A stretch of DNA of 64,000 nt. Source: a virus. The stretch is from the IMG/VR virus record IMGVR_UViG_3300012039_000002, positions 62,001 through 126,000 of that record; one strand, written 5' to 3'. Position 1 is the first letter of the stretch. Each line of letters starts with the position of its first letter. Under the pieces are notes generated by a model, which was given only the letters and a program-made list of their open reading frames with translations, ran no database searches and was not told the origin of the DNA. Positions 8,479-57,001 of the stretch are shown here, piece by piece. The position numbers were made by a program, and so were the translations under genes.

Positions 8479-9942
8479 ATGGATGAAGTACAGGGTTTTG
8501 GATTAGGATCCATGCAGGATGTCCAGGCCATTAACAAGGCCGTTGACTCGTTGTATAACGCGGGCACGGGAACCGGTTTGGCAGCTGGAGCTTCTTTTGG
8601 TTCCGACAATTATGGTAGCACTGGTGCGCAGTCCCTCAGAGTTGAATCTCTGGACTCGTCACTCAAGGTTATCACGTTCACTGATAAGCACATCAACTTC
8701 TGGAAAGACATTCCGAAGTCACCTGCTTATTCAACGGTTGAAGAATACAACCAGTTAACCTCTTACGGCTCGCAGACGGGCGGATTTGTTTCTGAAGGCG
8801 AATTGCCATATCAGACAAACTCCGACTACGCCAGACGAGCAGCTCTGGTCAAGTTCGTTGGAACGACCAGATCAGTAAGCCACCCATTAACCTTGGTCCG
8901 TACGATGGTTCCTGATGTTATTGCGCAGGAAAACTCAAATGGTATCATGTGGATGCTCCGCCAGATTGAAAATTCTCTCTTCTGGGGCAACGATGTGGGT
9001 CTTACGGGTGAATACGTGGAATGGGCGGGCCTTGATAAGCTTCTTGGCGTAGGTCCAAACACGACTTCCGGTACAGGCGCTGGTAACACCTTCGACCTCC
9101 GCGGAACAACTTTCTCCTCAACTCCTTTCACGACAATCGTCAATGACTTGGCACAGACAGTAGTTGATAACTTCGGTTTCCCAACTGACATTTATCTTCC
9201 ATTCCCTGTCCTTGCAAAGATCAACGAAGAGTTCGCTGGAACCGCTGCACAGAGAGTAATTCTCCCAACAGCCTCTGGTAATACTCAGGTCAACATTAAC
9301 ATTGACGGCCTTATGACTCAGGCTGGTCGAGTTAATCTCAAGCCAACCTTCTTCTTGCAGAAGACAAGAGTAGTTCCTGGTGCCGGTGACGGCGCTGCTA
9401 AGGTTCTTAAGTCTGGCGCTCTTGCGGTCGGAGGTACTTCTGTCACTATGTCAGCTGCAGGTACTCCTACAACTGGCTACTCAGTGGCTGCTGGTGACTA
9501 TGAAGGATCAGTCACTTTCAGAAACAAGTATGGTGAATCCGGCTCCGTCGCTCAGGGCGGTGGTACAATCACCACAAGCGGAACTAACACTCTTAGATTC
9601 GCTATCACAGCTCCTCCAACCGATGCAGAATTCGTAGACCTCTTCATCACTCAGGTCGACGACGCTGCTGGCGTGAAGTATTGGGTTCAGACAATGGCCC
9701 TTACTACAATAGCTGCAGGCCCAACTAACTACGATTACAATGGTATTCGTATGCCTAACACCTATACCTGCTTCATCGGCCAGATGACTCCTGACGTTCT
9801 TACCTTCCGTCAGTTGGCTCCGCTGGTAAAGATGGATCTAGCAACGATCGCTCCGGCTTACAAGTGGATGATCCTGCTCTACGGTGTTCCTGTTCTCTTC
9901 GCTCCTTTGAAGTGGACCAGAGTTATTAACGTAAAGTATTAA
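8479..9942 (+). CDS. Major capsid protein
   Basis: This is a 487-aa HK97-fold type major capsid protein, the building block of the icosahedral head. The N-terminal third has LRVESLDSSLKVITF, INFWKDIPK and a VEEYNQLTSYG stretch with GGFVSEGELP, typical of large myovirus capsid proteins. The C-terminus (FRQLAPLVKMDLAT ... YKWMILLYGVPVLFAPLKW) is the usual final axial domain. Residues about 300-425 look like an inserted Ig/Fn3-like domain (EGSVTFRNKYGESGS and following strands). AGGAGGA precedes the ATG. A strong hairpin terminator follows at 10001. Residues 37-58 share SFGSDNY...LRxESL with the protease tail. Confidence 0.93.
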   Translation: MDEVQGFGLGSMQDVQAINKAVDSLYNAGTGTGLAAGASFGSDNYGSTGAQSLRVESLDSSLKVITFTDKHINFWKDIPKSPAYSTVEEYNQLTSYGSQTGGFVSEGELPYQTNSDYARRAALVKFVGTTRSVSHPLTLVRTMVPDVIAQENSNGIMWMLRQIENSLFWGNDVGLTGEYVEWAGLDKLLGVGPNTTSGTGAGNTFDLRGTTFSSTPFTTIVNDLAQTVVDNFGFPTDIYLPFPVLAKINEEFAGTAAQRVILPTASGNTQVNINIDGLMTQAGRVNLKPTFFLQKTRVVPGAGDGAAKVLKSGALAVGGTSVTMSAAGTPTTGYSVAAGDYEGSVTFRNKYGESGSVAQGGGTITTSGTNTLRFAITAPPTDAEFVDLFITQVDDAAGVKYWVQTMALTTIAAGPTNYDYNGIRMPNTYTCFIGQMTPDVLTFRQLAPLVKMDLATIAPAYKWMILLYGVPVLFAPLKWTRVINVKY

Positions 9943-10065: not shown

Positions 10066-10299
10066 ATGACTCTATATCCACAACCAGGGGACACAGTCGG
10101 CGTAGGCTATGTTATGTCGTCCTTTGTTAGAGGACCCGTCGGCCTGCAAGGATATTCAGGAGACAATTCTGGCTATTCTGGCATGCAGACTTCGGGCACA
10201 TCAGGTTATGGCACCTCAGGTTACTCCGGATTTTCAGGTGCAACTGGTGCTTCTGGTTACTCTGGTGTTGACGGCTCTTCTGGCTACTCTGGCTTCTAA
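10066..10299 (+). CDS. Mini Gly-Tyr-Ser repeat protein 1
   Basis: This is a 77-aa protein. An N-terminal cap of about 27 residues (MTLYPQPGDTVGVGYV...) is followed by roughly 50 residues of GYSG-type repeat (GYSGDNSGYSGMQTSG and similar), ending in GYSGF. The repeat is the same kind as in the three giant fibre proteins at 37-51 kb. AAAGGAG lies upstream of the ATG. It sits between two hairpin terminators with a paralogue and directly behind the capsid gene, so it may be a head fibre or capsid decoration; that is inference from position. It has no membrane segment or signal peptide. Confidence 0.8.
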   Translation: MTLYPQPGDTVGVGYVMSSFVRGPVGLQGYSGDNSGYSGMQTSGTSGYGTSGYSGFSGATGASGYSGVDGSSGYSGF

Positions 10300-10327
10300 A
10301 CGTACGACTCAAATTTGGAGGATTTAA

Positions 10328-10564
10328 ATGGGACAATATCCAGCAGCGGGTGATTCGGTAGGGTACTCCTACACGTCCCCTCTTATAGGACCACGAGGCA
10401 CTTCGGGCTATAGTGGTACTCTTGGTACAAGCGGTTACTCTGGAGGCATAGGCACGTCCGGCTATTCTGGTTCTGGTAGATCTGGATATTCTGGCGTAAC
10501 TGGTGCAACCGGTACTTCCGGCTACTCCGGTACCGATGGTACTTCAGGTTACTCAGGCGTCTAA
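10328..10564 (+). CDS. Mini Gly-Tyr-Ser repeat protein 2
   Basis: This is a 78-aa paralogue of the preceding gene: the cap MGQYPAAGDSVGYSYTSPL aligns with MTLYPQPGDTVGVGYVMSS, followed by about 50 residues of GTSGYSG-type repeat. GGAGG precedes the ATG by several bases. A perfect hairpin follows 12 bases after the stop codon. The conserved cap (YPxxGDxVGxxY) is probably the part that binds a virion partner, with the repeat projecting outward. The two genes most likely arose by tandem duplication. Confidence 0.8.
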   Translation: MGQYPAAGDSVGYSYTSPLIGPRGTSGYSGTLGTSGYSGGIGTSGYSGSGRSGYSGVTGATGTSGYSGTDGTSGYSGV

Positions 10565-11038: not shown

Positions 11039-11051
11039 TTAGGAGCTAGTG

Positions 11052-11438
11052 ATGGCTGATGTGACTGGGGCTCATACTACGTTTCATCCCGTAGTGTCTC
11101 AAAATACTGAATCGGTTCTAAGACATAGGGCTAGATTTCAAACTAGTTCAGGCAGCAAGATCAATTTGCCTCTCATTACTGGAACTAGATACATTATATA
11201 TTCAGCGTATACTGCTGGAAAGCAGCTTACAATTGGTATCTCTACTGACGGCACTAATTATGTCAGCGGCAAGACTTACTTCGATTTCTCTCAGGCAGCA
11301 GGCCCTGTTGACTTGACAAAATTCTTTTCTTCAACTCCCTTTACTCAATACACACCGCCAACAGCTACTGACGTTTATTTGCTCATCAAAACTGATGCTG
11401 GCGAATTCACTGTTTCTATCGTTGAGTACAAAGTGTAA
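11052..11438 (+). CDS. Unknown 128-aa beta-rich virion-type protein
   Basis: This protein is mostly short alternating hydrophobic segments with Gly/Thr turns (INLPLITGTRYIIYSAYTAG, TIGISTDGTNYV), suggesting a small all-beta domain such as a capsid decoration or stopper protein. I do not recognise the family. ATG at 11052 is preferred over GTG at 11049 because AGGAG (11041-11045) is then at a normal distance. Its stop codon overlaps the start of the following cytochrome-like gene (TAATG), so the two are coupled. Confidence 0.65.
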   Translation: MADVTGAHTTFHPVVSQNTESVLRHRARFQTSSGSKINLPLITGTRYIIYSAYTAGKQLTIGISTDGTNYVSGKTYFDFSQAAGPVDLTKFFSSTPFTQYTPPTATDVYLLIKTDAGEFTVSIVEYKV

Positions 11439-12025
11439 TGGCTACCAAGGAAGAACTAAAAGAGGCGGTTTCTGAATCCCTCTTAGAGGCTCTTAAAGTT
11501 GCAGAAGAAAAACAAAAAGAAAGCGACGTTGTAACAAATTCAGGCCTTAATTGGGTTCTTAATCTATTAAATAAATTGATGCCTATGGCTCTCTTAGCGC
11601 TTATGGGATGGATAGCACTCACGATAGTTGACAATCAGAAAGATTTATTGGCAATGCGTCTTCAAGTTAATGCGATGGATAATACAATGAAAACCTTCAT
11701 GGATAAAGACATGAGGAAGTCGGCTACAAGTGCGCTTCTTCATCACTCAACAACAGTCAATCCTTGCAGCGGCTGTCACACGCGAAATGGAGTAGTTGTT
11801 CACACACTAGCGTCTTTGCCAAACAAGTCTCTGATGCCCGGGGATCTGTTTGAAATTAAGTGCGGGTCCTGTCACACTCTTGATAGAGTTTTGGCGACAA
11901 AGGGAACGCATGAGAAGTGGAAATCTGTTGTTAATGAAATGAGACAGAAGAACGCTAAATGGATTTCGCCTAGAGAGGCAATAATAATAGTTGATTATAT
12001 TGATCAATTAGAGAAGCATAAATAA
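11438..12025 (+). CDS. Membrane-anchored diheme c-type cytochrome-like protein
   Basis: This 195-aa protein has two CxxCH heme-attachment motifs, CSGCH (residues 110-114) and CGSCH (142-146). The second is followed by a TLDR...W..VV.EM...I...EA..I..YI pattern, typical of small c-type cytochromes, in which the Met of NEMRQ could be the distal heme ligand. Residues about 39-65 form one membrane segment (LMPMALLALMGWIALTIV) after a charged helical N-terminus, so the heme domain would face the periplasm. Covalent heme addition would need host maturation enzymes. The gene is coupled on both sides to head/neck genes (TAATG overlaps). Its role is unknown: electron transfer, a membrane-anchored sensor, or a CxxCH fold used only structurally. 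Confidence 0.75.
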   Translation: MATKEELKEAVSESLLEALKVAEEKQKESDVVTNSGLNWVLNLLNKLMPMALLALMGWIALTIVDNQKDLLAMRLQVNAMDNTMKTFMDKDMRKSATSALLHHSTTVNPCSGCHTRNGVVVHTLASLPNKSLMPGDLFEIKCGSCHTLDRVLATKGTHEKWKSVVNEMRQKNAKWISPREAIIIVDYIDQLEKHK

Positions 12026-12774
12026 TGAAGATACAGAACCTGACTCCAGATTGGCTATTAGAAACATATCTTTATAGAATTCCCATTGAGTTCGATAATG
12101 ATAGACTTTCTAATTCAGCTATTCAGTTTTATATCGACTCTGCAATTAGCAGAGCTGAAATGTTACTCGATATCTCGATTAGAAAAAAGAGCATCGAAGC
12201 TGAAACGTATGACTATCGTTTGGAAGAATGGATGGCTGGTTTTGGATTTGTTGCGCTTAATACGCGTCCTGCTATTCGTGTGACTAAAATGTCATTGAAT
12301 GTTATCACTAGTGAAATAGAGATTCCAGCGGAATGGATTCAACTTAAGAAGAAATCAGCACAAGTCAATTTGATTCCTTATTACGGTATGCTGGCTTCGC
12401 AGAATATTGCAAATCAAATATTGATATTTATGCCGATGTTGTCTGCTACTAGTTATGTGCCACAGATTTTGCGAATTTCATATGAAGCTGGCTATAACGA
12501 TACTGATGACGTTCCGGATCTATTAGCTCAGCTCATTGGTATGAACGCATCAATCGGAGTAATGAATGTTCTTGGTGAAATTGCTCTTGGAGGCCAAGCT
12601 GCTTTGGCTGGTTACTCTATTGGAATTGATGGATTATCTCAATCTGTCTCTACGACGCTGTCAGCAGAAAATCATGCTTACTCGGCTAGAGTTAGAGGTT
12701 ATGAAAGAGAACAAGTTGAAATAGTTAAGGCTTTACGCCAGTACTACTACGGTCTACACCTAACGAGCTGCTAA
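12025..12774 (+). CDS. Probable head-tail connector (adaptor) protein
   Basis: This is a 249-aa protein. The N-terminal YLYRIPIEFDNDRLSNSAIQ followed by AISRAEMLLDISIRKK looks like the helical N-terminal part of gp6/gp15-type adaptor proteins that bind under the portal. A beta-rich middle and a C-terminal helix (AENHAYSARVRGYEREQVE) follow. Position between capsid and sheath genes supports a neck role. Start and stop overlap both neighbours (TAATG), a sign of co-translation. I see no enzyme motif. Confidence 0.6.
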   Translation: MKIQNLTPDWLLETYLYRIPIEFDNDRLSNSAIQFYIDSAISRAEMLLDISIRKKSIEAETYDYRLEEWMAGFGFVALNTRPAIRVTKMSLNVITSEIEIPAEWIQLKKKSAQVNLIPYYGMLASQNIANQILIFMPMLSATSYVPQILRISYEAGYNDTDDVPDLLAQLIGMNASIGVMNVLGEIALGGQAALAGYSIGIDGLSQSVSTTLSAENHAYSARVRGYEREQVEIVKALRQYYYGLHLTSC

Positions 12775-37266: not shown

Positions 37267-39573
37267 ATGCGGCGAATATTCGATTTATTTAAAGACCTTC
37301 GAGATGTTCCATCTCCAGATGAGGGCAAGTTTTTAGTCTGGGATAATAATGAAACATTGAGAAACGCCTCTGGTACAGGCACTCCCGGTGAATCGGGTTA
37401 CTCTGGTTTTTCAGGCGCAAATCCCGGCCCTACAGGCTCTGCAGGCGCCTCTGGCTATTCTGGCGCCACAGGTTCTGGCTACAGTGGTTATTCAGGCCGA
37501 TCGGGCACTTCTGGTAAATCAGGCTTCTCTGGTTCCGGCACTTCTGGTTACTCTGGAATATCAGGCAGAGGTACAAGCGGGTATTCGGGTATAAGTGGTT
37601 CTGGTGTTTCTGGTTATTCTGGTCTTGCGGGATTATTTGCGGGCTCCGGCTATTCAGGTGAAACTGGCAGTTCAGGCTATAGTGGCTATTCAGGCTACTC
37701 CGGTTACAGTGGTTCTGGTGTAAGCGGCTATTCTGGCGATTCTGGCTATTCTGGCATAGGGACTTCTGGCTATTCTGGCATAGGGACTTCTGGCTATTCT
37801 GGCGATTCTGGCTATTCTGGCATAGGGACTTCTGGCTATTCTGGCGATTCTGGATATTCTGGTTCCGGTGTTTCCGGCTATTCGGGATTCAGTGGTTCAG
37901 GCACTTCGGGCTATTCCGGCGAACAAGGTAGCTCAGGCTACTCTGGAGATTCGGGCTATTCCGGCGAACAAGGTAGCTCAGGATATTCGGGTTCTGGAGT
38001 AAGTGGCTATTCGGGCGTCTCAGGTTATTCCGGCTACTCTGGCTCTGGCGTATCTGGCTACTCGGGTTTTTCTGGCTCTGGTGTATCTGGCTACTCGGGT
38101 TTTTCTGGTTCGGGTGTTTCCGGTTATTCTGGCTTCAGCGGTTATTCTGGCTTCAGCGGTTATTCTGGAATTGGTACTTCGGGTTATTCTGGAATATCAG
38201 GACATTCAGGCTCAGGTGTTTCAGGTTATAGCGGCTATTCTGGCGTAAGCGGTTACTCTGGGTTTTCTGGCCGCTCTGGTGTAAGCGGATATTCAGGTTA
38301 TTCAGGTAGGTCGGGCTATTCAGGCACTAATCCCGGTGTTCAGGGTGCTTCAGGTTATTCGGGTTATTCAGGCGGTTCTGGTATCGATGGTCTTCCTGGT
38401 GGAACATCTGGTTATTCTGGTTTTAGCGGATACTCAGGTGTTTCGGGTTATTCGGGTTCAGGTACTAGTGGTTATTCTGGCGAACAGGGCACTTCTGGTT
38501 ATTCTGGTTCGGACGCTTTAACGTCAGGCTATTCTGGTATTGATGGCACATCTGGTTATTCTGGCATCAATGGCGTTTCTGGCTATTCTGGCATCGATGG
38601 AGTGTCTGGCTATTCTGGTGTCGACGGTTCATCTGGTTATTCGGGTTTTGTGCCGGGTGGCTCAGGCTATTCTGGTATTTCCGGTTATTCAGGTGAATCT
38701 GGTGCTTCGGGCTACTCAGGTTTCGTTCCTGGCGGCTCAGGTTACTCTGGCATTTCTGGCTATTCAGGCATTGGAACTTCGGGTTATTCAGGTTCTGGCG
38801 TTTCTGGCTACTCTGGTTTTTCTGGATCCGGTGTATCAGGCTATTCAGGCTATTCAGGTAAGTCAGGTTACTCGGGTCATTCAGGTTTTGTGGGTGCGAC
38901 GGGAAATTCTGGCTATTCAGGCGCATCAGGTACTGATGCTCAATATTCTGGTTCATCTGGCTATTCTGGTTCATCTGGCTATTCTGGTTCCTCTGGAACG
39001 TCAGGTTATTCTGGTAAGTCGGGCTACTCAGGAAATTCTGGTTATTCTGGCTTTGGATATTCAGGCTATTCAGGAGCTACAGGCCTTCAAGGTTATTCAG
39101 GCGAAGCAACGTCAGGCTATTCTGGCGGCCAGGGTAATCAAGGTCTTTCTGGCTATTCTGGTTCTGGTGTGTCGGGTTACAGTGGTTCAGGTGTAAGCGG
39201 CTATTCGGGCTCAGGCGTTTCTGGCTATTCAGGCTTCTCAGGCTATTCAGGCTTGAGCACATCTGGTTACTCAGGTGAATCAGGCTATAGTGGCGCATCA
39301 GGCTACAGTGGTTATTCAGGAGTTTCAGGTTATTCTGGCACGCCGCCTGCAGGACTGGGCACTTATTCTGGATGGTCTGGCGCTGGTTCAACCTTTGTTC
39401 AGAACTCCGGTGTAGCAGTAGGGACGCCACTGGTATTTTTGACTCCAACAGATGCATCTGGAGCGACTTTATTTGGATACGTTTCTGGAATTGATGGAAC
39501 TTCAGGCTTTACAGCAGGCTACACTTCGCCAACAGGCGTTGTCACCTGGAACTACATAATCTTTACAAGCTAA
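37267..39573 (+). CDS. Giant Gly-Tyr-Ser repeat fibre protein 1
   Basis: This 768-aa protein has three parts. The N-terminal cap of about 38 residues (MRRIFDLFKDLRDVPSPDEG, KFLVWDNNETLR) is shared with the protein at 46285. Residues about 40-690 are an almost pure GYSG-type shaft (GYSGISGYSG, GSGVSGYSG, GIGTSGYSG). A C-terminal globular domain of about 75 residues follows (TFVQNSGVAVGTPLVFLTPT, VVTWNYIIFTS). The shaft would be a long fibre; it is called collagen-like because Gly recurs every third residue, but Pro is almost absent. The C-terminal domain is the likely receptor-binding or trimerisation part. Synonymous codons are varied along the shaft. Confidence 0.85.
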   Translation: MRRIFDLFKDLRDVPSPDEGKFLVWDNNETLRNASGTGTPGESGYSGFSGANPGPTGSAGASGYSGATGSGYSGYSGRSGTSGKSGFSGSGTSGYSGISGRGTSGYSGISGSGVSGYSGLAGLFAGSGYSGETGSSGYSGYSGYSGYSGSGVSGYSGDSGYSGIGTSGYSGIGTSGYSGDSGYSGIGTSGYSGDSGYSGSGVSGYSGFSGSGTSGYSGEQGSSGYSGDSGYSGEQGSSGYSGSGVSGYSGVSGYSGYSGSGVSGYSGFSGSGVSGYSGFSGSGVSGYSGFSGYSGFSGYSGIGTSGYSGISGHSGSGVSGYSGYSGVSGYSGFSGRSGVSGYSGYSGRSGYSGTNPGVQGASGYSGYSGGSGIDGLPGGTSGYSGFSGYSGVSGYSGSGTSGYSGEQGTSGYSGSDALTSGYSGIDGTSGYSGINGVSGYSGIDGVSGYSGVDGSSGYSGFVPGGSGYSGISGYSGESGASGYSGFVPGGSGYSGISGYSGIGTSGYSGSGVSGYSGFSGSGVSGYSGYSGKSGYSGHSGFVGATGNSGYSGASGTDAQYSGSSGYSGSSGYSGSSGTSGYSGKSGYSGNSGYSGFGYSGYSGATGLQGYSGEATSGYSGGQGNQGLSGYSGSGVSGYSGSGVSGYSGSGVSGYSGFSGYSGLSTSGYSGESGYSGASGYSGYSGVSGYSGTPPAGLGTYSGWSGAGSTFVQNSGVAVGTPLVFLTPTDASGATLFGYVSGIDGTSGFTAGYTSPTGVVTWNYIIFTS
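37768..37851 (+). repeat. Exact tandem duplication of 42 bases in the shaft
   Basis: The 42-base unit GGCTATTCTGGCATAGGGAC... (ending GGCTATTCTGGCGATTCT) occurs twice in a row at 37768-37809 and 37810-37851, with further partial units directly upstream from 37726. It encodes a GYSGIGTSGYSGDS unit. Because the unit is a multiple of three, gain or loss by slippage would change shaft length without breaking the frame. Confidence 0.9.
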
Positions 39574-40748: not shown

Positions 40749-43700
40749 TTGGCCATAGTTTTTCAAAACAAGAACTTTGCTAAGTCTCTCGTTGCGACCC
40801 TTCTTGGTTCTGGCGGTCTAAGCATATCTGTCACTGCTGGCACGGGAGTAAGGTTCCCTCAAACTGGCTTGTTTAAGCTAGTTATTTGGGGCGCTGCGTA
40901 TTCGAATCCTTCCGACGATCCCAACAGAGAAATAGTTCACGCTACATTATCAGCAGCGGATACTTTCACTATCGTTAGAGCTCAAGAAGACACAGTTGCA
41001 GGCACTTGGGTCGTTGGCTCTAAAGTCGCACACACAATTACTGCTGGAAAAATAAAAGAAATAGAAGATGAAATCTCTGTCGGCGGATCTGGATACTCAG
41101 GCTTTTCTGGCTATTCTGGTGTTGCTGGAGGCACTGGAGTTGCGGGCGTTTCTGGCTATTCTGGCTCAGGTGTAAGTGGCTACTCTGGCTCAGGCGTAAG
41201 TGGCTATTCTGGCTCAGGAATAAGCGGATATTCTGGCGAAGGTACTTCAGGTTATTCAGGCGCGGTCGGTGATATTGGTTTTTCTGGTTATTCTGGTTTT
41301 AGCGGTGCTCTTGGATTTCCAGGCGGCCCTGGCTTATCAGGTATGTCAGGCTATTCCGGCTTTGGAATAAGTGGCTACTCTGGCTCTGGAGTGTCTGGTT
41401 ACAGCGGAGATGCTGGCGTATCGGGCTATTCTGGCAGTGACGCTCAAACGTCAGGCTATTCTGGTGCAAGTGGCTATTCTGGCAGCGATGCTCAAACGTC
41501 GGGTTATTCTGGTGCAAGTGGCTATTCTGGACCAATGGGTCCTGGCGGCGGAGATTCTGGTTATTCTGGTTATTCAGGTAGCGATGCTCAAACGTCTGGT
41601 TATTCAGGTTTTTCTGGTTATTCTGGTGTCGGTTTTTCTGGCTCTGACGGTTCGTCAGGCTATTCAGGCTACTCTGGCGTCGGAACGTCTGGCTATTCTG
41701 GCGTAGGTTTTTCTGGAGCAGATGGTACGTCTGGTTACTCTGGCTCTGGAATTTCTGGTTATTCCGGCTCTGGTGTCTCCGGTTACTCTGGTTCTGGCGT
41801 CTCCGGCTACTCTGGCTCTGGAACTTCAGGCTATAGTGGAATAAGCGGCTACTCTGGCTCTGGTGTTTCTGGCTACAGTGGAGCATCCGGCTACTCTGGC
41901 TCAGGCGTCAGTGGCTACTCTGGCTCAGGCGTCAGTGGCTACTCTGGTTCTGGCGTATCAGGTTACTCTGGCTATTCAGGAATTTCAGGTTACTCCGGCT
42001 ACTCTGGTTATTCTGGAGTTTCAGGATATTCTGGCATTTCTGGCTATTCAGGTTATTCAGGATATAGCGGAACGACGGGTACAGGATTCGACTACTATCT
42101 AAGAGATATAGCGTCTGATGTTAGCGGATATGGTGAATTAACTAGATCGACACCGTCAGAAGCTCAAAATGACGACTCTGTTACTACAACAAGTGGTGCT
42201 CTGATCGAGGCATATGCAACTGAATCAGGCGATCCAAATGTCACGTCTATTTCTCCAGGAAAGTGGGCTTTCCACTTCTGGGGCTGGGTTAACAACAACG
42301 CGGGTTTACAGACATTTGTTTACGATGTTTATAAGAGAGACGCGTCGGGTGTCGAAACACTTCTCTTCACAAAGAGCAGTGCATCAATTGAATCTACCGC
42401 TTCTGGCACACCGACCGAACTTCAAGACGATTATTTTGATGGCAGTGGATTCACGATTGCTAATACAGATCGACTAGTTCTAAAAGTAAATGGCTTTACT
42501 GATACGGGCACTAGAACAATCCATCTACTCCATTCAGGCCCGACATTTGCGTCTCACTTTTCAACGCCACTCACAGTGGGTATCTCTGGCAGTTCAGGTT
42601 TTAGTGGTTATAGTGGAATTGGAACATCTGGTTACTCTGGAGTTTCAGGCTACAGTGGCATAAGCGGCTATTCTGGAATATCTGGCTATAGCGGTTATTC
42701 AGGCTCGGGTGTTAGTGGCTATTCTGGCTCTGGCGTAAGCGGCTATTCGGGCTCGGGTGTTTCTGGCTATTCCGGATATTCAGGTTCTGGAGTAAGCGGT
42801 TATTCTGGTTCCGGAGTTTCTGGTTATTCTGGAACATCTGGCTATAGTGGCTATTCTGGCTCTGGCGTTAGTGGCTATTCTGGTGTCGATGGCGTTTCTG
42901 GCTACTCTGGTTCTGGAACCTCTGGTTACTCTGGTTTAGCGCCAGAAACAATTACTTATCTGCCAACATGGGTTTCAGGTATTTCAGGCAGTTATTCAGG
43001 CGGAAATCTTGCTTCAATACAGACTGCTTATGACGCCGATGACTACATTGTCTGGGAAGTATCAGGCGTCCCTGGATTCGTAGTCAATGTCGATTACTCA
43101 GGTGTAGCGGCTTTCAATAAGGTCCAGCTTAGAACTGGCTATACGAACCCTAATCACACTGTCTTAGTAGAAGCATACAACAGTGGTGATACCACATGGG
43201 ATTCACTGGGTTCTTTCAGAGGATTTGCTGGTGGTTATGCAACATTCTCTTATGACGTCATTACAGATGTTCCATACATCCAAGCTGGAGGCTACGTACA
43301 GACGAGGTTTTACCATCAGTCGACGGGTAATCCTGCTGATGAGTTCTTGCTTGACTACATGACATTACAACAGGCTACCGCCGGCCCTCAGGGTCCTGAA
43401 GGTCAGTCGGGAGTATCCGGATATAGTGGAGTTTCAGGTTATTCTGGAACGTCGGGATACTCTGGTTATTCAGGCGATAGTGGTTATTCAGGACATAGTG
43501 GAAGCGGTATTTCTGGCTATTCTGGTTCTGGAACATCTGGTTATTCTGGTGTCTCAGGCTATTCTGGCTATTCTGGTTATTCGGGAATTTCAGGCTACAG
43601 TGGTGCTTCGGGCTACTCTGGTTATTCGGGAATTTCAGGTTACTCTGGATCTTCTGGTTATTCAGGCGTAAGTGGTGAAAATTATCCATGGCAAGGTGCT

Positions 43701-45266
43701 TGGGCTTCTGGAACTGCTTATGTGCCGAATGATACAGTCGGCTATCTAGGCGCCGGTTATATCTCAATTCAAAGCGGTTCGGGCCAAACCCCAGTTCCTA
43801 CGAGCACGGCATACTGGGATTTGCTTACTGCTTCAGGCTATTCAGGAATGTCGGGCTATTCTGGTTACTCTGGCTCTGGAGTTTCTGGTTATTCTGGAAT
43901 TGGCACTTCTGGCTATTCGGGCATTTCAGGCGCCTCTGGCTATTCTGGAATTTCTGGCTACTCCGGTTATTCAGGTTCTGGTGTAAGCGGCTATTCTGGC
44001 GTCGGAACATCTGGTTATTCAGGAGATTCTGGTTATTCAGGAATTACATATCCTTGGGAAGGCGCATGGGTTTCAGGCACGCTTTATCAAGTAAATGACA
44101 CTGTAAGTTATCTTGGTGCAGGTTTCATTTCTATTCAAAGCGGAGTAGGACAGACGCCTGATCCTGCAGGCACTGCTTATTGGGATCTTGTTTCTAGCTC
44201 AGGCTATTCAGGAATTTCAGGATATTCTGGCGTTTCTGGTTATTCAGGAGCTTCAGGTTATAGTGGTTACTCTGGCTCTGGCGTAAGTGGCTATTCTGGC
44301 TCAGGTGTAAGCGGCTATTCTGGCGTCGGAACATCTGGCTACTCTGGCTATTCTGGAGTATCTGGTTACTCTGGTTATTCAGGAATAAGTGGCTATAGTG
44401 GCTCAGGCGTATCGGGTTACTCTGGATATAGTGGCTATTCAGGTTCTGGTGTATCTGGCTATTCTGGCTCAGGTGTCTCTGGTTACAGCGGCTATTCAGG
44501 TTCTGGAATATCAGGTTACTCTGGTTCTGGAACATCTGGCTACTCTGGAGCCGGAACGTCTGGCTATTCTGGAGTAAGTGGCTATTCGGGTGTCTCTGGC
44601 TACTCTGGTTCAGGTGTAAGCGGTTACTCTGGTTCTGGTGTGTCGGGTTATAGTGGCTATTCTGGCGCAGGAACTTCAGGCTACTCTGGAGCTGGAACTT
44701 CCGGTTATTCTGGCTCTGGTGTTTCAGGTTACTCTGGCTATTCTGGCTCTGGCGTAAGCGGCTATTCTGGTGTTTCTGGTGCCGGAACGTCTGGCTATTC
44801 TGGTGGAACTGGTACCGATGGTACTTCTGGCTATTCTGGTGGAACTGGTACTGATGGTACGTCAGGTTACTCTGGATGGTCAGGCGCCGGAACGTCTGGC
44901 TACTCAGGATATTCTGGTCGTGCAGGTGTTAGAACTTACACATGGGTTATTGATACGCCTGTGGCAAGTAGTGCTCTTGCATCTGGAGTTCCTGGTCCGC
45001 GCCTTCGTGAAGCTCAGACCGCCACAAGAGTAGACGCATACACTCTAAACAACTCTGGATGGACGATCAACATTCAAGAGAGAAGTGCTATCGGTACTTC
45101 AGGTTCTAACCTCATTGCAAGCACTTACTTCCCAGCTGCTGGCGGTTCTGTGGCAAGCTTCTCAGATGCTGCTCTTGCTGCCGACAACTGGCTCTGGCTA
45201 CAGATAGTCGCTGTCTCTGGAACTCCAGGTCTTGGCGTTGTCACTCTAAGCACAACGGTACCATAA
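40749..45266 (+). CDS. Giant Gly-Tyr-Ser repeat fibre protein 2 with binding modules
   Basis: This is a 1505-aa protein. The start is TTG at 40749, supported by AAGGAG (40736-40741). The N-terminal 115 residues form the attachment module also seen at 32063 (FQNKNFAKSLVATLLG, EIVHATLSAADTFTI). The GYSG shaft is interrupted by globular modules: about 443-613 unknown beta domain, about 735-880 a repeated beta module (module A), and CBM5/12-like modules at about 978-1032 and 1100-1153 (YPWQGAWASGTAYVPNDTVG). A C-terminal globular domain (about 1392-1505) ends the protein. It is probably an outer tail fibre; no sialidase or depolymerase motif is evident. Confidence 0.85.
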   Translation: MAIVFQNKNFAKSLVATLLGSGGLSISVTAGTGVRFPQTGLFKLVIWGAAYSNPSDDPNREIVHATLSAADTFTIVRAQEDTVAGTWVVGSKVAHTITAGKIKEIEDEISVGGSGYSGFSGYSGVAGGTGVAGVSGYSGSGVSGYSGSGVSGYSGSGISGYSGEGTSGYSGAVGDIGFSGYSGFSGALGFPGGPGLSGMSGYSGFGISGYSGSGVSGYSGDAGVSGYSGSDAQTSGYSGASGYSGSDAQTSGYSGASGYSGPMGPGGGDSGYSGYSGSDAQTSGYSGFSGYSGVGFSGSDGSSGYSGYSGVGTSGYSGVGFSGADGTSGYSGSGISGYSGSGVSGYSGSGVSGYSGSGTSGYSGISGYSGSGVSGYSGASGYSGSGVSGYSGSGVSGYSGSGVSGYSGYSGISGYSGYSGYSGVSGYSGISGYSGYSGYSGTTGTGFDYYLRDIASDVSGYGELTRSTPSEAQNDDSVTTTSGALIEAYATESGDPNVTSISPGKWAFHFWGWVNNNAGLQTFVYDVYKRDASGVETLLFTKSSASIESTASGTPTELQDDYFDGSGFTIANTDRLVLKVNGFTDTGTRTIHLLHSGPTFASHFSTPLTVGISGSSGFSGYSGIGTSGYSGVSGYSGISGYSGISGYSGYSGSGVSGYSGSGVSGYSGSGVSGYSGYSGSGVSGYSGSGVSGYSGTSGYSGYSGSGVSGYSGVDGVSGYSGSGTSGYSGLAPETITYLPTWVSGISGSYSGGNLASIQTAYDADDYIVWEVSGVPGFVVNVDYSGVAAFNKVQLRTGYTNPNHTVLVEAYNSGDTTWDSLGSFRGFAGGYATFSYDVITDVPYIQAGGYVQTRFYHQSTGNPADEFLLDYMTLQQATAGPQGPEGQSGVSGYSGVSGYSGTSGYSGYSGDSGYSGHSGSGISGYSGSGTSGYSGVSGYSGYSGYSGISGYSGASGYSGYSGISGYSGSSGYSGVSGENYPWQGAWASGTAYVPNDTVGYLGAGYISIQSGSGQTPVPTSTAYWDLLTASGYSGMSGYSGYSGSGVSGYSGIGTSGYSGISGASGYSGISGYSGYSGSGVSGYSGVGTSGYSGDSGYSGITYPWEGAWVSGTLYQVNDTVSYLGAGFISIQSGVGQTPDPAGTAYWDLVSSSGYSGISGYSGVSGYSGASGYSGYSGSGVSGYSGSGVSGYSGVGTSGYSGYSGVSGYSGYSGISGYSGSGVSGYSGYSGYSGSGVSGYSGSGVSGYSGYSGSGISGYSGSGTSGYSGAGTSGYSGVSGYSGVSGYSGSGVSGYSGSGVSGYSGYSGAGTSGYSGAGTSGYSGSGVSGYSGYSGSGVSGYSGVSGAGTSGYSGGTGTDGTSGYSGGTGTDGTSGYSGWSGAGTSGYSGYSGRAGVRTYTWVIDTPVASSALASGVPGPRLREAQTATRVDAYTLNNSGWTINIQERSAIGTSGSNLIASTYFPAAGGSVASFSDAALAADNWLWLQIVAVSGTPGLGVVTLSTTVP

Positions 45267-46284: not shown

Positions 46285-49200
46285 ATGCAGCGCATATATA
46301 AGAGATTCCGCGAATTATTAGACGCTTCTCAGCCAGACGCTGGGAAGTTTTTGCGTTGGAGCACTAGCGGAACAATAGAAAATGCTGTGGGCGTTTCTGG
46401 CTATAGCGGCGATTCGGGCTACAGTGGTACGTCAGGAAAATCGGGATATTCCGGCTCTAGTGTATCGGGTTATTCTGGTAAGTCGGGCTACAGTGGTCGA
46501 AGTGGCTATTCGGGAATTTCCGGCTCAGGTGTTTCTGGCTATTCAGGCACTTCTGGCTATTCTGGTGCTCATGGTGTAATCGGTTTGTCGGGCACATCAG
46601 GATACTCGGGAAGATCAGGATCAGGAGTGTCTGGCTATTCAGGTTCTGGTACTTCTGGCTATAGTGGCTATTCCGGAGTTACTGGATCACAAGGCGCCTC
46701 AGGCAAGTCAGGCTATTCTGGTGCCGATGGAGTTAACGGAGCTTCAGGTCACTCTGGCTACTCAGGCAAGTCGGGTTATAGCGGCGCAGACGGGTCTATC
46801 GGTTATTCAGGTGAATCAGGCTATTCTGGCTTTTCTGGCTCCGGTGTTTCTGGTTTTTCTGGCTCCGGTGTTTCAGGCTATTCAGGAATTGGTACATCAG
46901 GATATTCTGGCTTAGATGCTCAGATGTCCGGCTATTCGGGTTATAGTGGTCTCAGCGGGGTTGGACTTGTCGGCCCTCCAGGCACTTCTGGTTATTCTGG
47001 AATTGGCACTTCTGGTTATTCTGGAATTGGAACTTCTGGTTATTCTGGAGTCTCAGGCTTAGGTGTGTCGGGTTATTCTGGAGTCTCTGGCTCTGGTGTG
47101 TCAGGCTACTCCGGCGTTGCGCCGTCGACTACGACATATCTTCCATCTTCAGTTTCAACAAACGTTGGGTCGTATGTATCAGGAACTTTGACGTCTATAC
47201 AGATATTTGGTGACAATGATGTTTATGAGGTAGATGAAGTTTCTGGAGTTCCCGGATTTGATATTCGCATTGATTTTTCTGGAGTATCCGGCTTTAATAA
47301 AGCGCAAATGAATATTTGGTACACGGGTGTTGCCAATCACATACCTAAAGTGCAAATCTATAACAACAACACAACAAGCTGGGATAGCATAGGTTCTCTA
47401 AACGACGATACAGAACTTCAATCGCACGAATTTGCTGTAATAAATAGTGTTCCGTACATATCAGCCGGCGCAGTTTCGACTAGAATTTATCACGAAACAT
47501 CTGGCATAATAACGCACGACATTTTAGTAGATTATTTTGTACTTCAAAATGCTATTGGCGGCGCTCAAGGCATCCCCGGCTTTATTGGTCCTTCTGGCTA
47601 TAGCGGCTCTAGTACCTCGGGTTACAGTGGACTCTCAGGTTATTCAGGACTTTCTGGTACTTCCGGTTCTGGTACGTCAGGTTATAGCGGTTTTGTAGGA
47701 GTACCAGGAGGCCAAGGAATATCTGGCTATTCTGGCATAAGTGGTTATTCCGGCATAAGTGGGACTTCTGGTTATTCCGGTATTGGAACATCCGGTTATT
47801 CTGGAATAAGTGGTTATAGCGGTTCAGGCGTTTCAGGCTATAGCGGAATTTCAGGCTCAGGCGTAAGCGGTTATTCTGGTTCCGGAGCTTCGGGTTACAG
47901 CGGCTATTCTGGTTTTGGAGTGTCGGGTTACAGTGGTTCAGGTGTAAGTGGCTATTCTGGTTCTGGTATTTCCGGTTATTCGGGTGACATAGGAACTTCG
48001 GGCTACTCAGGATTAAACGCTGATTCAGGATCGCCCGGCGTATCCGGCTACTCTGGCTATTCTGGTATTGGCACGTCGGGCTATTCTGGTATCGGTACAT
48101 CCGGGTATTCAGGCGATAGCGGTATTTCTGGCTACTCTGGTTCTGGTGTAAGTGGATACTCTGGTTATAGCGGCGTTTCAGGAATTTCTGGCTACTCTGG
48201 TGTGTCTGGTTCTGGTGTGTCTGGTTATTCTGGTTACTCTGGTTCTGGTGTGTCCGGTTACTCTGGTGTCTCTGGCTTTTCTGGTTACTCTGGTTCTGGT
48301 TATTCTGGTTATTCTGGTTATTCTGGTTACTCTGGTTCTGGTGTATCTGGTTATTCTGGTTACTCTGGTTCTGGCGTGTCTGGTTATAGTGGCTATTCTG
48401 GCTCCGGTGTAAGTGGCTATTCTGGTTCTGGCGTATCAGGTTATAGTGGCTATTCTGGTTCTGGCGTATCGGGTTATTCAGGACAAGACGGTGCGACGGG
48501 AAATTCTGGCGACTCTGGCTACAGTGGCGCCTCGGGATACTCTGGCCAGGATGGTATCATCGGCTTTAATGGCGACTCTGGCTACAGTGGCCTCTCAGGA
48601 TACTCTGGCTACAGCGGCTACTCTGGCTCAGGTGTAAGTGGTTATAGTGGCTATTCTGGCTACAGTGGCGTTTCAGGATATTCTGGTTATAGTGGCATTT
48701 CGGGCTACAGCGGCTCTGGCATTTCGGGCTACAGTGGCTCTGGCGTAAGTGGCTACAGCGGGCTCTCACCAGAAAATGTCACTTACTATGCTAGTGGCTT
48801 TGATGTGCTGACAGGAACTCTCACATCTGGGACTACTCTTTCTCTATCTGGCTTCAATGACGGTGACTTTGCTCATGTAGACGAAGTTGGAGGTGCTCCG
48901 GGATTTGACATTCGTATTGGCTTCTCTGGTGTCGACACTTTCAACGAAGTAATACTAAATGCTTTTTATCTTGGTAGTGCTGGTCACATAGTAAAAGTTG
49001 ACTTCTTCAATAATGCAACCTCTGGCTGGGATTCGTTTGGAACACTGAATGATGACATAGCTTTTCAGGTCCACGAGTTCCCAATCCCAGATGATACTGA
49101 TTATATTGCTACAGGTGGAGTGGTTGCTTCAAGAATATATCATTATTCTAATGGTCAAACGTCGCATGATTTTGACTTAGACTATTTTGTCATCCGAGAT

Positions 49201-51360
49201 TCCATTGGCGGCTCTCAAGGAATAGAAGGCATATCTGGCTACTCTGGCTACTCTGGTTATTCGGGTTCGGGCGTCTCAGGCTATTCGGGTTCTGGTGTCT
49301 CAGGTTATTCTGGCTCAGGCGTAAGCGGCTATTCTGGTTCTGGAACATCAGGCTATTCTGGTGTCGGAACGTCTGGCTACTCGGGAGCTTCCGGCTATTC
49401 TGGCATCTCAGGTATTCAATATCCGTGGCAGGGCGCTTGGGTGTCGGGTACTGCTTATATACCGAACGATTGTATTGGTTATCTTGGTGCGTCATACATT
49501 TCGATTCAGAGTGGTTCGGGTCAAACCCCAGTCCCTACTGGAACAGCATATTGGGATCTACTGGCGTCGTCAGGTTACTCTGGCATTTCAGGTTACTCTG
49601 GCTCCGGTGTTTCGGGCTACTCAGGTTCAGGCACTTCTGGTTATTCTGGCTATAGCGGAAAATCTGGCTATAGCGGCTATTCAGGCTATTCAGGCTCTGG
49701 TGTTTCAGGTTACTCAGGTTCTGGAACATCAGGCTATTCAGGCTATAGTGGTTATTCAGGATATTCTGGACATTCTGGTTACTCTGGTGTCAGCGGTTAT
49801 TCAGGTGTCTCTGGCTATTCGGGTATTAGTGGTTCTGCGCCGTATATCGGAGTAAATACTCATACATCTTCAGATCTCATGGGTACATATCCTGCTGGTA
49901 TGTCTTTGATGACAGTGAACGTAGGACTCTCTACTGGTTGGCCTGAACCTGTAGGTTCTGCAAATTGTCAAGGAGAAGTAATTACTTATTATGACAATAC
50001 ATATGGTGCCGACGGCATAGGATTAGGTTATCAAGAATATCATGTTAGAGGAGGTCAACCAAATTCAAATACTTCAAGATATTATAGAAAACCAGATACA
50101 GCTGAAGCTGGTTCAGCATGGACAGCTTGGAGTGAAGGAATAGGCATTTCTGGATACAGTGGTTATAGCGGCTACTCTGGATATTCTGGCTACTCAGGAT
50201 TCAGTGGTTATTCTGGAAACTCAGGATACTCTGGCTACTCTGGCTCAGGTGTAAGTGGTTATAGTGGCTATTCTGGCTACTCTGGCTCTGGAACTTCTGG
50301 CTACAGTGGCTTTAGTGGAATTTCAGGTTACTCTGGCTTCTCTGGTATCAGTGGTTACTCTGGCTATTCCGGTTCTGGTGTTAGTGGCTATTCCGGATAT
50401 TCCGGTTCTGGTGTTAGTGGCTATTCCGGATCGCCTAACTCTAATGCAGACACAGTAGACGGACAGCATAATTACGATTTCTGGAGATATTGTGGTAATA
50501 GAACGACTGATGCTACACCGACTGACGTATCTAATTTGGTTGGGGGATTTACTTTTTATACACAATTTGTCTCAGACGTATCTGGTTATCCAGAAACAAC
50601 GTACGGCCCAGTGTGGGGTTTCGCCGATAATCTTAATGGTTCTGTATTTTACGGCTGGGAAATGTATAAGGGTTACAGCGCTAGTTTGTATCTTAGGACA
50701 CAGACTGGCTTAACTACATGGTCTAGTTGGTCTATACTTGGATCATCAGGAAACAGCGGTTATTCCGGTTTCTCTGGTATTAGTGGCTATTCAGGATCTG
50801 GCGTTTCTGGTTATTCAGGATTCAGCGGCTACTCAGGTGTTTCTGGCTACTCTGGCTCTGGTGTCTCTGGCTACTCCGGAACTGTAGCCGCGGGATCTAT
50901 TACAGGATCAGGAACAAGCGGGTATATCACTAAATGGGGGAGTGCTTCTGGTATAACTTCTTCTCTTCATCTTCGTGAAGACGCTGAAGGAGTGTTCATT
51001 GGTGGCAATCTTTCTAGCGGCGCTGCATACTTTCATATAGATTCTGACACAAAAGACGACGTACCGTTTAAGGTTACAGGAACTCAGGGAGAGCTGTTTT
51101 CAGTTACAGACAATCTAGATTCACTTCTTCAATCAGTCAACGACATCACAGGACTGCCAGTATTTGAAGTTTATGCTGATGACCGCGTAGTAGTACACGG
51201 GGCAACTGAGGTGGTGGCGAAGGACGCTCCGTCAACTCCGGCAGCTGATAATGCGAGACTTTACGTGACGGCTTCCGGCGCAACACCAAACAGGGAAATC
51301 GCTCTTAATGTAAAATTCGAAGATGGAACAGTAGTGATATTATCATCGGTATTGGTGTAA
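46285..51360 (+). CDS. Giant Gly-Tyr-Ser repeat fibre protein 3 with five binding-type modules
   Basis: This 1691-aa protein is the largest in the window. The N-terminal cap (MQRIYKRFRELLDASQPDAG) is paralogous to that of fibre 1. The GYSG shaft carries module A twice (about 283-430 and 829-978: VPGFDIRIDFSGV and APGFDIRIGFSGV), a CBM5/12-like module (about 1045-1098, YPWQGAWVSGTAYIPNDCIG), and two pyocin-knob-like modules (about 1186-1287, ending SAWTAWSEG; about 1383-1488, ending LTTWSSWSILG). The last 160 residues form a C-terminal domain (DSDTKDDVPFKVTGTQGE, NREIALNVKFEDGTVV). No ribosome binding site is evident; it may be coupled to the gene upstream. Confidence 0.85.
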   Translation: MQRIYKRFRELLDASQPDAGKFLRWSTSGTIENAVGVSGYSGDSGYSGTSGKSGYSGSSVSGYSGKSGYSGRSGYSGISGSGVSGYSGTSGYSGAHGVIGLSGTSGYSGRSGSGVSGYSGSGTSGYSGYSGVTGSQGASGKSGYSGADGVNGASGHSGYSGKSGYSGADGSIGYSGESGYSGFSGSGVSGFSGSGVSGYSGIGTSGYSGLDAQMSGYSGYSGLSGVGLVGPPGTSGYSGIGTSGYSGIGTSGYSGVSGLGVSGYSGVSGSGVSGYSGVAPSTTTYLPSSVSTNVGSYVSGTLTSIQIFGDNDVYEVDEVSGVPGFDIRIDFSGVSGFNKAQMNIWYTGVANHIPKVQIYNNNTTSWDSIGSLNDDTELQSHEFAVINSVPYISAGAVSTRIYHETSGIITHDILVDYFVLQNAIGGAQGIPGFIGPSGYSGSSTSGYSGLSGYSGLSGTSGSGTSGYSGFVGVPGGQGISGYSGISGYSGISGTSGYSGIGTSGYSGISGYSGSGVSGYSGISGSGVSGYSGSGASGYSGYSGFGVSGYSGSGVSGYSGSGISGYSGDIGTSGYSGLNADSGSPGVSGYSGYSGIGTSGYSGIGTSGYSGDSGISGYSGSGVSGYSGYSGVSGISGYSGVSGSGVSGYSGYSGSGVSGYSGVSGFSGYSGSGYSGYSGYSGYSGSGVSGYSGYSGSGVSGYSGYSGSGVSGYSGSGVSGYSGYSGSGVSGYSGQDGATGNSGDSGYSGASGYSGQDGIIGFNGDSGYSGLSGYSGYSGYSGSGVSGYSGYSGYSGVSGYSGYSGISGYSGSGISGYSGSGVSGYSGLSPENVTYYASGFDVLTGTLTSGTTLSLSGFNDGDFAHVDEVGGAPGFDIRIGFSGVDTFNEVILNAFYLGSAGHIVKVDFFNNATSGWDSFGTLNDDIAFQVHEFPIPDDTDYIATGGVVASRIYHYSNGQTSHDFDLDYFVIRDSIGGSQGIEGISGYSGYSGYSGSGVSGYSGSGVSGYSGSGVSGYSGSGTSGYSGVGTSGYSGASGYSGISGIQYPWQGAWVSGTAYIPNDCIGYLGASYISIQSGSGQTPVPTGTAYWDLLASSGYSGISGYSGSGVSGYSGSGTSGYSGYSGKSGYSGYSGYSGSGVSGYSGSGTSGYSGYSGYSGYSGHSGYSGVSGYSGVSGYSGISGSAPYIGVNTHTSSDLMGTYPAGMSLMTVNVGLSTGWPEPVGSANCQGEVITYYDNTYGADGIGLGYQEYHVRGGQPNSNTSRYYRKPDTAEAGSAWTAWSEGIGISGYSGYSGYSGYSGYSGFSGYSGNSGYSGYSGSGVSGYSGYSGYSGSGTSGYSGFSGISGYSGFSGISGYSGYSGSGVSGYSGYSGSGVSGYSGSPNSNADTVDGQHNYDFWRYCGNRTTDATPTDVSNLVGGFTFYTQFVSDVSGYPETTYGPVWGFADNLNGSVFYGWEMYKGYSASLYLRTQTGLTTWSSWSILGSSGNSGYSGFSGISGYSGSGVSGYSGFSGYSGVSGYSGSGVSGYSGTVAAGSITGSGTSGYITKWGSASGITSSLHLREDAEGVFIGGNLSSGAAYFHIDSDTKDDVPFKVTGTQGELFSVTDNLDSLLQSVNDITGLPVFEVYADDRVVVHGATEVVAKDAPSTPAADNARLYVTASGATPNREIALNVKFEDGTVVILSSVLV

Positions 51361-55783: not shown

Positions 55784-57001
55784 TTGAAAGTATTATTAAT
55801 TCATCCGCCGCACCCTAATTCTACTGATGACAGGCTTGATCCTCCAATGGGCCTTCTTTATATTGCATCTCATTTAGAGAAAAACTATGTAGACGTGGAT
55901 GTTTTAGATTTGTCGGGAAACAGCGATTGGGACGTTGCTATACCATTTGCTGACATTTATGGGATTACGTCTTATATCGCCACGCTGGGTATAACTGAAT
56001 CGATAGCAAAGCTGTGCAGATTAAAAAACGCAAAAGCTCAGGTAATTATCGGCGGAGCTCACGCATCTGTGCGTCCGCAAGACTTTCCGTATGCCGACAA
56101 GGTGGTTAGAGGCTATGGTGAAGCTCCCATGCTGGCTCTTTGTGGCAAACAAGCGACAGTGGACCTATTTGAGTTCCCTGCATTCAATAAAGTTAATTTA
56201 GGATCCTATTCAAGGCTAATAGACGGAAAGCCCTCGGTTCCCTTTTTAACATCTAGAGGCTGCCCATTCAAATGCAGCTTTTGTGGTCTGGCTTCTATGC
56301 ATAATATAAATGGTCGGTACCACATGATGAAGCCTGACGTGGCTGCAACGCAGCTATGCCGTATTAAGAATGAACTTGGCATTGATAGATTAAACTTCCA
56401 AGATGACATTTTTACGATGAATCGCCCTAGACTCTTTAAAATACTAGAGGCAGTAAAGGAGCTAGGATTTAGATTCTCTTGTATGGGTAGGGCAGGCTAC
56501 GACACTGAAGAGACTTACGAGAAACTAGCTGAGTCAGGATGTCAACAGATAGCATGGGGAATAGAAACAGGTTCGCAATACATGCTTGACCGTATGAGAA
56601 AAGAAATAAAAGTTCAAGACAACTATAACGTAATTAAATGGGCTAAGAAATATGGTATAGTATCTAGGGCTTTCTTTATGATAGGATTTCCCGGAGAGAC
56701 TAGAGAAACGATAGAGGAAACAAAACGTTTCATAGAAAAATCAGATCCTGACCAATACTTTGTTTCTAACTTTACGCCGTATCCTGGAACAGAAGTAGCT
56801 GAAAATCCAGAATGGTACGGAATTACTGGCATGTCTCATGATTATAGCAACTATTTTCAGGTTTCAAAAGACGGCCCTGGCGGATGTAACATAGATACAG
56901 AGTGGCTTTCTAGAGAGCAATTTAGAGAACTAGAACTAGAGTTTAGACAATGGATTAAGTCCCGAGGCATGAGAGGAGCTAAGCAAAAATATGAAGGTTA
57001 G
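55784..57001 (+). CDS. Radical SAM protein with B12-binding-like N-terminal domain
   Basis: This is a 405-aa protein. The TTG start at 55784 is supported by AGGAG (55773-55777). Residues 1-120 form a Rossmann-type domain of the cobalamin-binding radical SAM group (VLLIHPPHPNSTDDR start, AQVIIGGAHASVRP). It lacks an obvious DxHxxG motif, so cofactor binding by that fold is uncertain. Residues 160-167 hold the CxxxCxxC iron-sulfur site (CPFKCSFC), followed by IETGS (radical SAM strand) and FFMIGFPGETRETIEE. Family members methylate or rearrange substrates. It overlaps the next gene by 11 bases. The substrate is unknown; fibre or surface-glycan modification is an inference from the neighbours. 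Confidence 0.85.
   Translation: MKVLLIHPPHPNSTDDRLDPPMGLLYIASHLEKNYVDVDVLDLSGNSDWDVAIPFADIYGITSYIATLGITESIAKLCRLKNAKAQVIIGGAHASVRPQDFPYADKVVRGYGEAPMLALCGKQATVDLFEFPAFNKVNLGSYSRLIDGKPSVPFLTSRGCPFKCSFCGLASMHNINGRYHMMKPDVAATQLCRIKNELGIDRLNFQDDIFTMNRPRLFKILEAVKELGFRFSCMGRAGYDTEETYEKLAESGCQQIAWGIETGSQYMLDRMRKEIKVQDNYNVIKWAKKYGIVSRAFFMIGFPGETRETIEETKRFIEKSDPDQYFVSNFTPYPGTEVAENPEWYGITGMSHDYSNYFQVSKDGPGGCNIDTEWLSREQFRELELEFRQWIKSRGMRGAKQKYEG

Follow-up and report, generated by a model that had tools for sequence, protein, structure and literature searches.

A predicted membrane-anchored diheme c-type-cytochrome-like protein encoded between the head and neck genes of an SPO1-like phage

The window analyzed here, a stretch of 64,000 nucleotides, corresponds to positions 62001-126000 of a 163,355-base phage record in IMG/VR (IMGVR_UViG_3300012039_000002). 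The source is a large tailed phage, SPO1/Herelleviridae-like, and the closest isolates by major head protein were SPO1/Herelleviridae-type phages, at ∼40% identity. Downstream of the head gene lies an ORF of 195 aa that reads from ATG to TAA (Table 1). The stop codon of the upstream gene (TAA, 11436-11438) ends on the first base of this ORF, whose own last base is the first base of the downstream ATG (12025), in agreement with the start-stop coupling on both sides that an earlier note on this DNA had described. The gene following the phrog_772 match had similarity to phrog_1004, annotated as ‘virion structural protein’. Long GYSG/SGYSG collagen-like repeat proteins were found at window positions 10066-10564, 37267-39573, 40749-45266, and 46285-51360, and such proteins also adjoin the head genes in relatives. 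In the tail region (55784-59360) the letters alone suggest a gene for a radical-SAM-like protein and, after it, one for a two-domain glycosyltransferase-like protein.

Table 1. Features of the cytochrome-like gene and its surroundings, in window positions.
Feature	Position	Strand	Evidence or remark
Major head protein	8479-9942	+	phrog_752, E 6e-78
Upstream gene of the structural operon, one-base overlap with the cytochrome-like gene	11049-11438	+	
Membrane-anchored diheme c-type-cytochrome-like protein, 195 aa	11438-12025	+	ORF; relatives share the locus
N-terminal peptide, residues 1-46, K.AVSESLLEAL module, probably cytoplasmic	11438-11575	+	shared with heme-less L011
Membrane segment, residues 47-65	11576-11632	+	hydropathy 1.91 over 19 residues
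Predicted helical stalk, residues 66-101	11633-11740	+	single long helix in a low-confidence full-length model
His102-His103, candidate distal heme ligands	11741-11746	+	invariant in 7/7 CxxCH versions
CSGCH, putative heme site 1, residues 110-114	11765-11779	+	C110, C113, and H114 invariant in seven versions
Class-I-like cytochrome c domain, residues 129-195	11822-12022	+	profiles, PDB profile, plasmid tblastn, fold search
CGSCH, putative heme site 2, residues 142-146	11861-11875	+	kept in L004
Met168, candidate distal ligand of heme 2	11939-11941	+	aligns with M56 of SorB 2blf_B
Downstream neck/tail-type gene, one-base overlap	12025-12774	+	phrog_772, E 5e-40

The single membrane segment proposed earlier was confirmed, although hydropathy gave slightly narrower limits than the residues 39-65 first suggested. 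The charges flanking the span favored an N-in orientation in three relatives (L007, L009, and L012) and were neutral for the window protein; the full-length structure model was of low confidence. Both CxxCH motifs were present where the earlier note had placed them, as was its W..VV.EM...YI pattern (W161, V164-V165, M168, and Y187-I188). The small cytochrome c domain that it had proposed was recovered around the second motif, whereas the first motif belongs to a separate HH...CxxCH element that follows the stalk. No match to holin or spanin families was obtained in Pfam or PHROGs.

Direct searches of IMG/VR returned two identical copies of the protein and one relative of 75% identity (L004) in which both CxxCH motifs were kept, and ∼20 further phages came from searches in which the adjacent neck gene or the major head protein served as the query. 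Seven distinct versions of a CxxCH protein occupied the same slot (the window protein, L004, L006, L007, L009, L012, and L032). Their common core consisted of the membrane span, the helical stalk, and HH-x(6-8)-CxxCH, and most versions ended shortly afterwards. Few alignment columns were invariant across the seven (M1, T3, Q67, K68, H102, H103, C110, C113, H114, and the aligned terminal K195), with HH and CxxCH making up nearly the whole invariant set. The earlier note had named loss of the Cys and His residues in close relatives as refuting its reading; they are retained. The motif was CxxCH in every version, and CxxC lacking the His was never present. Versions with a long N-terminus (L032 and L006) and those with a short one (L007 and L012) matched over span, stalk, and motif with 98.5% profile probability. 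In the K.AVSESLLEAL region L032 shares 63% identity with L011, a heme-less version, and this N-terminal peptide is, as judged from the alignments, a separate module; by the same alignments, the conserved core of the family is the short HH...CxxCH motif after the predicted helical stalk. Between the window gene and L004, pN was 0.152 gene-wide (pS 0.78, saturated) and fell to 0.054 for the span and 0.016 for the heme-1 segment (residues 100-128; pS 0.74), while the value for the second domain (0.214) was similar to that of the neighboring neck gene (0.193). The strongest constraint is on the HH...CxxCH core.

The extra C-terminal domain with a second CxxCH occurred only in the window protein and L004, two of the seven versions. 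It matched the NCBIfam profiles of SorB, the cytochrome c subunit of sulfite dehydrogenase (1.7e-4), and, as an isolated domain, of the alpha subunit of quinohemoprotein amine dehydrogenase (QHNDH; TIGR03908, PF09098), which gave the best isolated-domain E-value (5.7e-5). Both scores were far below the family cut-offs (21.6 bits against a cut-off of 93 for the SorB family, NF052246) and no profile attained its curated cut-off; by these scores, residues 129-195 form a domain related to SorB that is not a member of NF052246. With three residues of the CxxCH masked, the sole NCBIfam matches of the window protein were, weakly, QH_alpha (0.036) and SorB (0.16), and the masked L004 domain had none. 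Similarity confined to CxxCH is weakened as an explanation by this control on the window protein, though masked L004 loses its matches. A PADLOC match of residues 118-191 to DpdD (E 1.2e-4, library of 5,027 models) was taken as chance because a small domain aligns there inside a 676-position model.

In a PDB search with a profile built from the two sequences, nearly all matches were cytochromes. A tblastn search of 7.3 billion plasmid bases gave five matches, three of them annotated as cytochrome c, one as quinohemoprotein amine dehydrogenase alpha, and one unannotated. The 71-residue domain model, also built from two sequences (pLDDT 70), was all-helical (helices 10-18, 24-29, 34-47, and 54-70), with helices flanking the CxxCH and a long C-terminal helix. 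A fold search with it over 350,542 chains ranked SorB (2blf_B) first (probability 0.87, E 0.18) and QHNDH second (E 4.4), so that sequence profiles and fold search arrived independently at the same relationship; the viral structure library contained no meaningful match. The alignment of residues 137-189 spans most of the SorB domain, with CxxCH, W161, M168, and Y187 corresponding. In the chain letters as printed by the PDB search, M168 falls on M56, the sole Met of the SorB chain. The heme of SorB is His/Met ligated. By profiles and model together, residues 129-195 make up a monoheme cytochrome c of class-I-like type, closest to SorB and quinohemoprotein amine dehydrogenase. The earlier note had called for a structure prediction and a profile search against cytochrome c families, and its reading of the gene as encoding a diheme, c-type-cytochrome-like protein of the membrane, set within the head/neck cluster, is thus supported by profile, tblastn, and fold searches.

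The relationship does not extend to whole proteins. SorB is soluble, carries a single heme, and is paired with SorA, unlike the phage domain, which is fused behind a span, a stalk, and a second putative heme site; no SorA-like partner was seen for the phage protein. QHNDH alpha is a 500-residue enzyme subunit of which the small heme-binding domain alone is common to the phage protein. The single N-terminal span with hemes outside would work like NapC/NirT/NrfH proteins (PF03264, TIGR03153), but those have at least four CxxCH motifs, and as many hemes, after one span, and the window protein has two motifs and no match to the family.

Residue shuffling of the phage’s predicted proteins gave an expectation of 0.38 CxxCH proteins against five observed, three of which have a membrane or signal segment ahead of the motif; shuffling and conservation together rule out a chance motif. 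One of the other heme-type genes (G000:21473-21811) encodes a 112-aa protein with one span and HIEAVTATDKNCNDCH. It overlaps by one base an SLT-domain gene, the only SLT gene found in the record, and the pair is adjacent, SLT gene first, in six distinct phages (L061:913-1811, that is G000:20913-21811, and L067, L071, L072, L076, and L077). Within this 112-aa family H64 and the CNDCHLG motif are kept and the C-terminus is very similar, while the span diverges. The protein had weak matches to NapC/NirT/NrfH (PF03264 and TIGR03153; 0.006 and 0.03). Compared with each other, the two TM-CxxCH families of the phage gave a weak profile match (11%) confined to the motif, and shared ancestry is not claimed. 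Together the SLT and TM-CxxCH genes make a candidate for a lysis pair that includes a heme motif.

The SLT lysozyme-like proteins beside the TM-CxxCH gene are exported or membrane-anchored, and the pair lies within a tRNA-rich region (L060 and L061, G000:11820-28996) with 33 tRNA genes, against 35 in the relative G002. In these SLT proteins (L061:913-1473, L067, L072, L076, and L077) a Cys stands in the middle of the hydrophobic N-terminus (IACT or similar), absent from L071, and another is conserved in the catalytic part, a layout that we take to resemble thiol-regulated signal-anchor endolysins. Elsewhere in the phage, five tandem small genes (L065:523-2885, G000:145523-147885) start with MK[IV]R[TL]DFVTNSSSS[AS]F. 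The product of a further heme-type gene (L064:15927-16313, G000:140927-141313), 128 aa long, has a Sec-type signal peptide as well as a CLICH motif and matched part of the GEGP diheme family (4e-18, below the cut-off); the gene adjoins a lipoprotein-like gene. The sequences of these additional, predicted exported CxxCH proteins suggest that the host matures c-type cytochromes.

The slot itself was variable. Four relatives (L011, L028, L033, and L013) had membrane proteins without CxxCH in the same position, and in more distant phages (L014, L016, L017, L019, L020, L023, and L029) the slot was empty, with a gap of a few bases. Relatives with 60-78% identity in the flanking structural genes lacked the gene or had another in its place. 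In the neck-gene tree, on which some forks were weakly supported, heme and heme-less versions were mixed in one group, with the slot empty elsewhere. The profile match between the heme family and the heme-less L028, L013, and L033 (45%) was limited to the N-terminal part, and homology is not claimed. Because many relatives have nothing in this slot and others have heme-less membrane proteins there, the gene behaves, by this comparison, like an exchangeable accessory cassette; for the same reason its location among virion genes does not make the protein a part of the virion.

No relative was found among 50,697 records of annotated phages, nor among GTDB contigs scanned with the neck-gene and 112-aa profiles, and the family so far appears phage-specific by these searches. 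Reports of phage cytochromes were few in the open literature searched. The earlier note knew of no precedent for a cytochrome in a structural operon. The literature searched, with most subscription papers and all preprints lying outside it, yielded no phage case of one and no virion operon with a family of membrane-anchored cytochromes; a phage-borne c-type cytochrome as such does have a precedent. The gene for SoxD, together with other sulfur-oxidation genes, has been reported on phage contigs and read as host energy support, with the phage SoxD copies lacking one or both heme motifs (PMC8190135). SoxD is a host-like enzyme subunit, unlike the phage-specific membrane family in a virion operon described here. 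The multiheme cytochromes encoded on Borg elements have been proposed to boost electron transfer in the host (PMC11208441), but these are large multiheme proteins of an archaeal element of unsettled nature, as opposed to the one- or two-heme proteins of a tailed phage.

The computations thus place at this locus a gene for a protein with a membrane segment, conserved HH and CxxCH residues, and a C-terminal domain akin to cytochrome c, under purifying selection and exchanged or lost among relatives. From its sequence the protein is highly likely to be a c-type heme protein, and very probably binds two covalent hemes. The most likely role is electron transfer supporting host respiration, a reading to which we give at most about an even chance. 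More broadly, these phages probably supply the host, late in infection, with a membrane component that carries electrons or is based on heme. The single-span protein would be produced alongside the late virion genes, with its C-terminal part on the periplasmic side, where the host cytochrome c maturation system would attach the two hemes at the CxxCH motifs. Heme 1 would sit at the tip of the membrane-proximal helical stalk, probably His/His ligated by H114 and either H102 or H103, and heme 2 in the SorB/QHNDH-like class I domain, probably His/Met ligated by H146 and M168. Together the two hemes would offer electrons a short route out of the membrane, from quinol or a respiratory complex, to a partner in the periplasm, and may thereby keep the host respiratory chain and proton-motive force going during virion production. 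The strong constraint at heme site 1, the cytochrome-like C-terminal domain, and the variable slot, which is as expected of an accessory gene, all point in this direction; no redox partner gene was identified. A few relatives have a heme-less, one-span protein in the slot, so electron transfer is perhaps not the basic job of the slot.

This last observation favors the main rival, an unlikely one in our judgment, in which the protein belongs to the membrane or lysis programme as a holin-, i-spanin-, or superinfection-type protein with one span and a stalk, its heme tuning the timing of membrane events by stabilizing the periplasmic part or by reporting redox state or respiratory collapse. The same-slot proteins of L028, L033, L013, and L011 would fit such a function, two of the heme-less proteins had a very weak holin profile match (phrog_9233, E 0.12-0.22), the N-terminal module is common to heme and heme-less forms, and the phage’s second TM-CxxCH protein adjoins the only SLT gene, in six phages. 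However, no holin or spanin family was matched significantly, the similarities that would tie these proteins together are the 45% and 11% matches given above, and the true cytochrome domain gained in two phages fits electron transfer better.

A heme-free role for the CxxCH and HH residues, in binding zinc or another metal or in a regulated disulfide, is quite improbable. The topology of the heme part is a prediction, and in most relatives the core is HH...CxxCH alone, with no recognizable cytochrome fold, which would suit such a function, but the His of CxxCH is present in all seven versions, the motif is followed by a cytochrome c domain in the window protein, and the phage’s Sec-signal protein is of the diheme-cytochrome type. 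A role as a head or neck component of the virion is very improbable: the gene does sit amid head and neck genes and overlaps each neighbor by one base, but its product spans the membrane by prediction, and the gene is missing or substituted in relatives with 60-78% identity in the structural genes around it. Under the electron-transfer reading, the accessory gene would ride the virion operon for late expression and not as a head part.

A broader proposal, which we regard as quite unlikely, is that a group of SPO1-like phages couples host respiratory state to late infection through its own set of small c-type heme proteins, anchored in the membrane and encoded in the virion operon and beside a lysozyme-like gene, which would sustain electron flow and time membrane collapse and lysis by heme redox state. 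Phage genes that aid host energy metabolism are mostly host-like enzymes, and the family described here is apparently phage-specific and membrane-anchored. Its heme-binding residues are kept while the remainder diverges, and one branch has gained what appears to be a true cytochrome domain. If heme proves to be attached, phages infecting heme-rich bacteria would be assembling respiratory or heme-sensing membrane components of their own, and one small gene could be used to probe the effects of phages on respiration and membrane potential in late infection.
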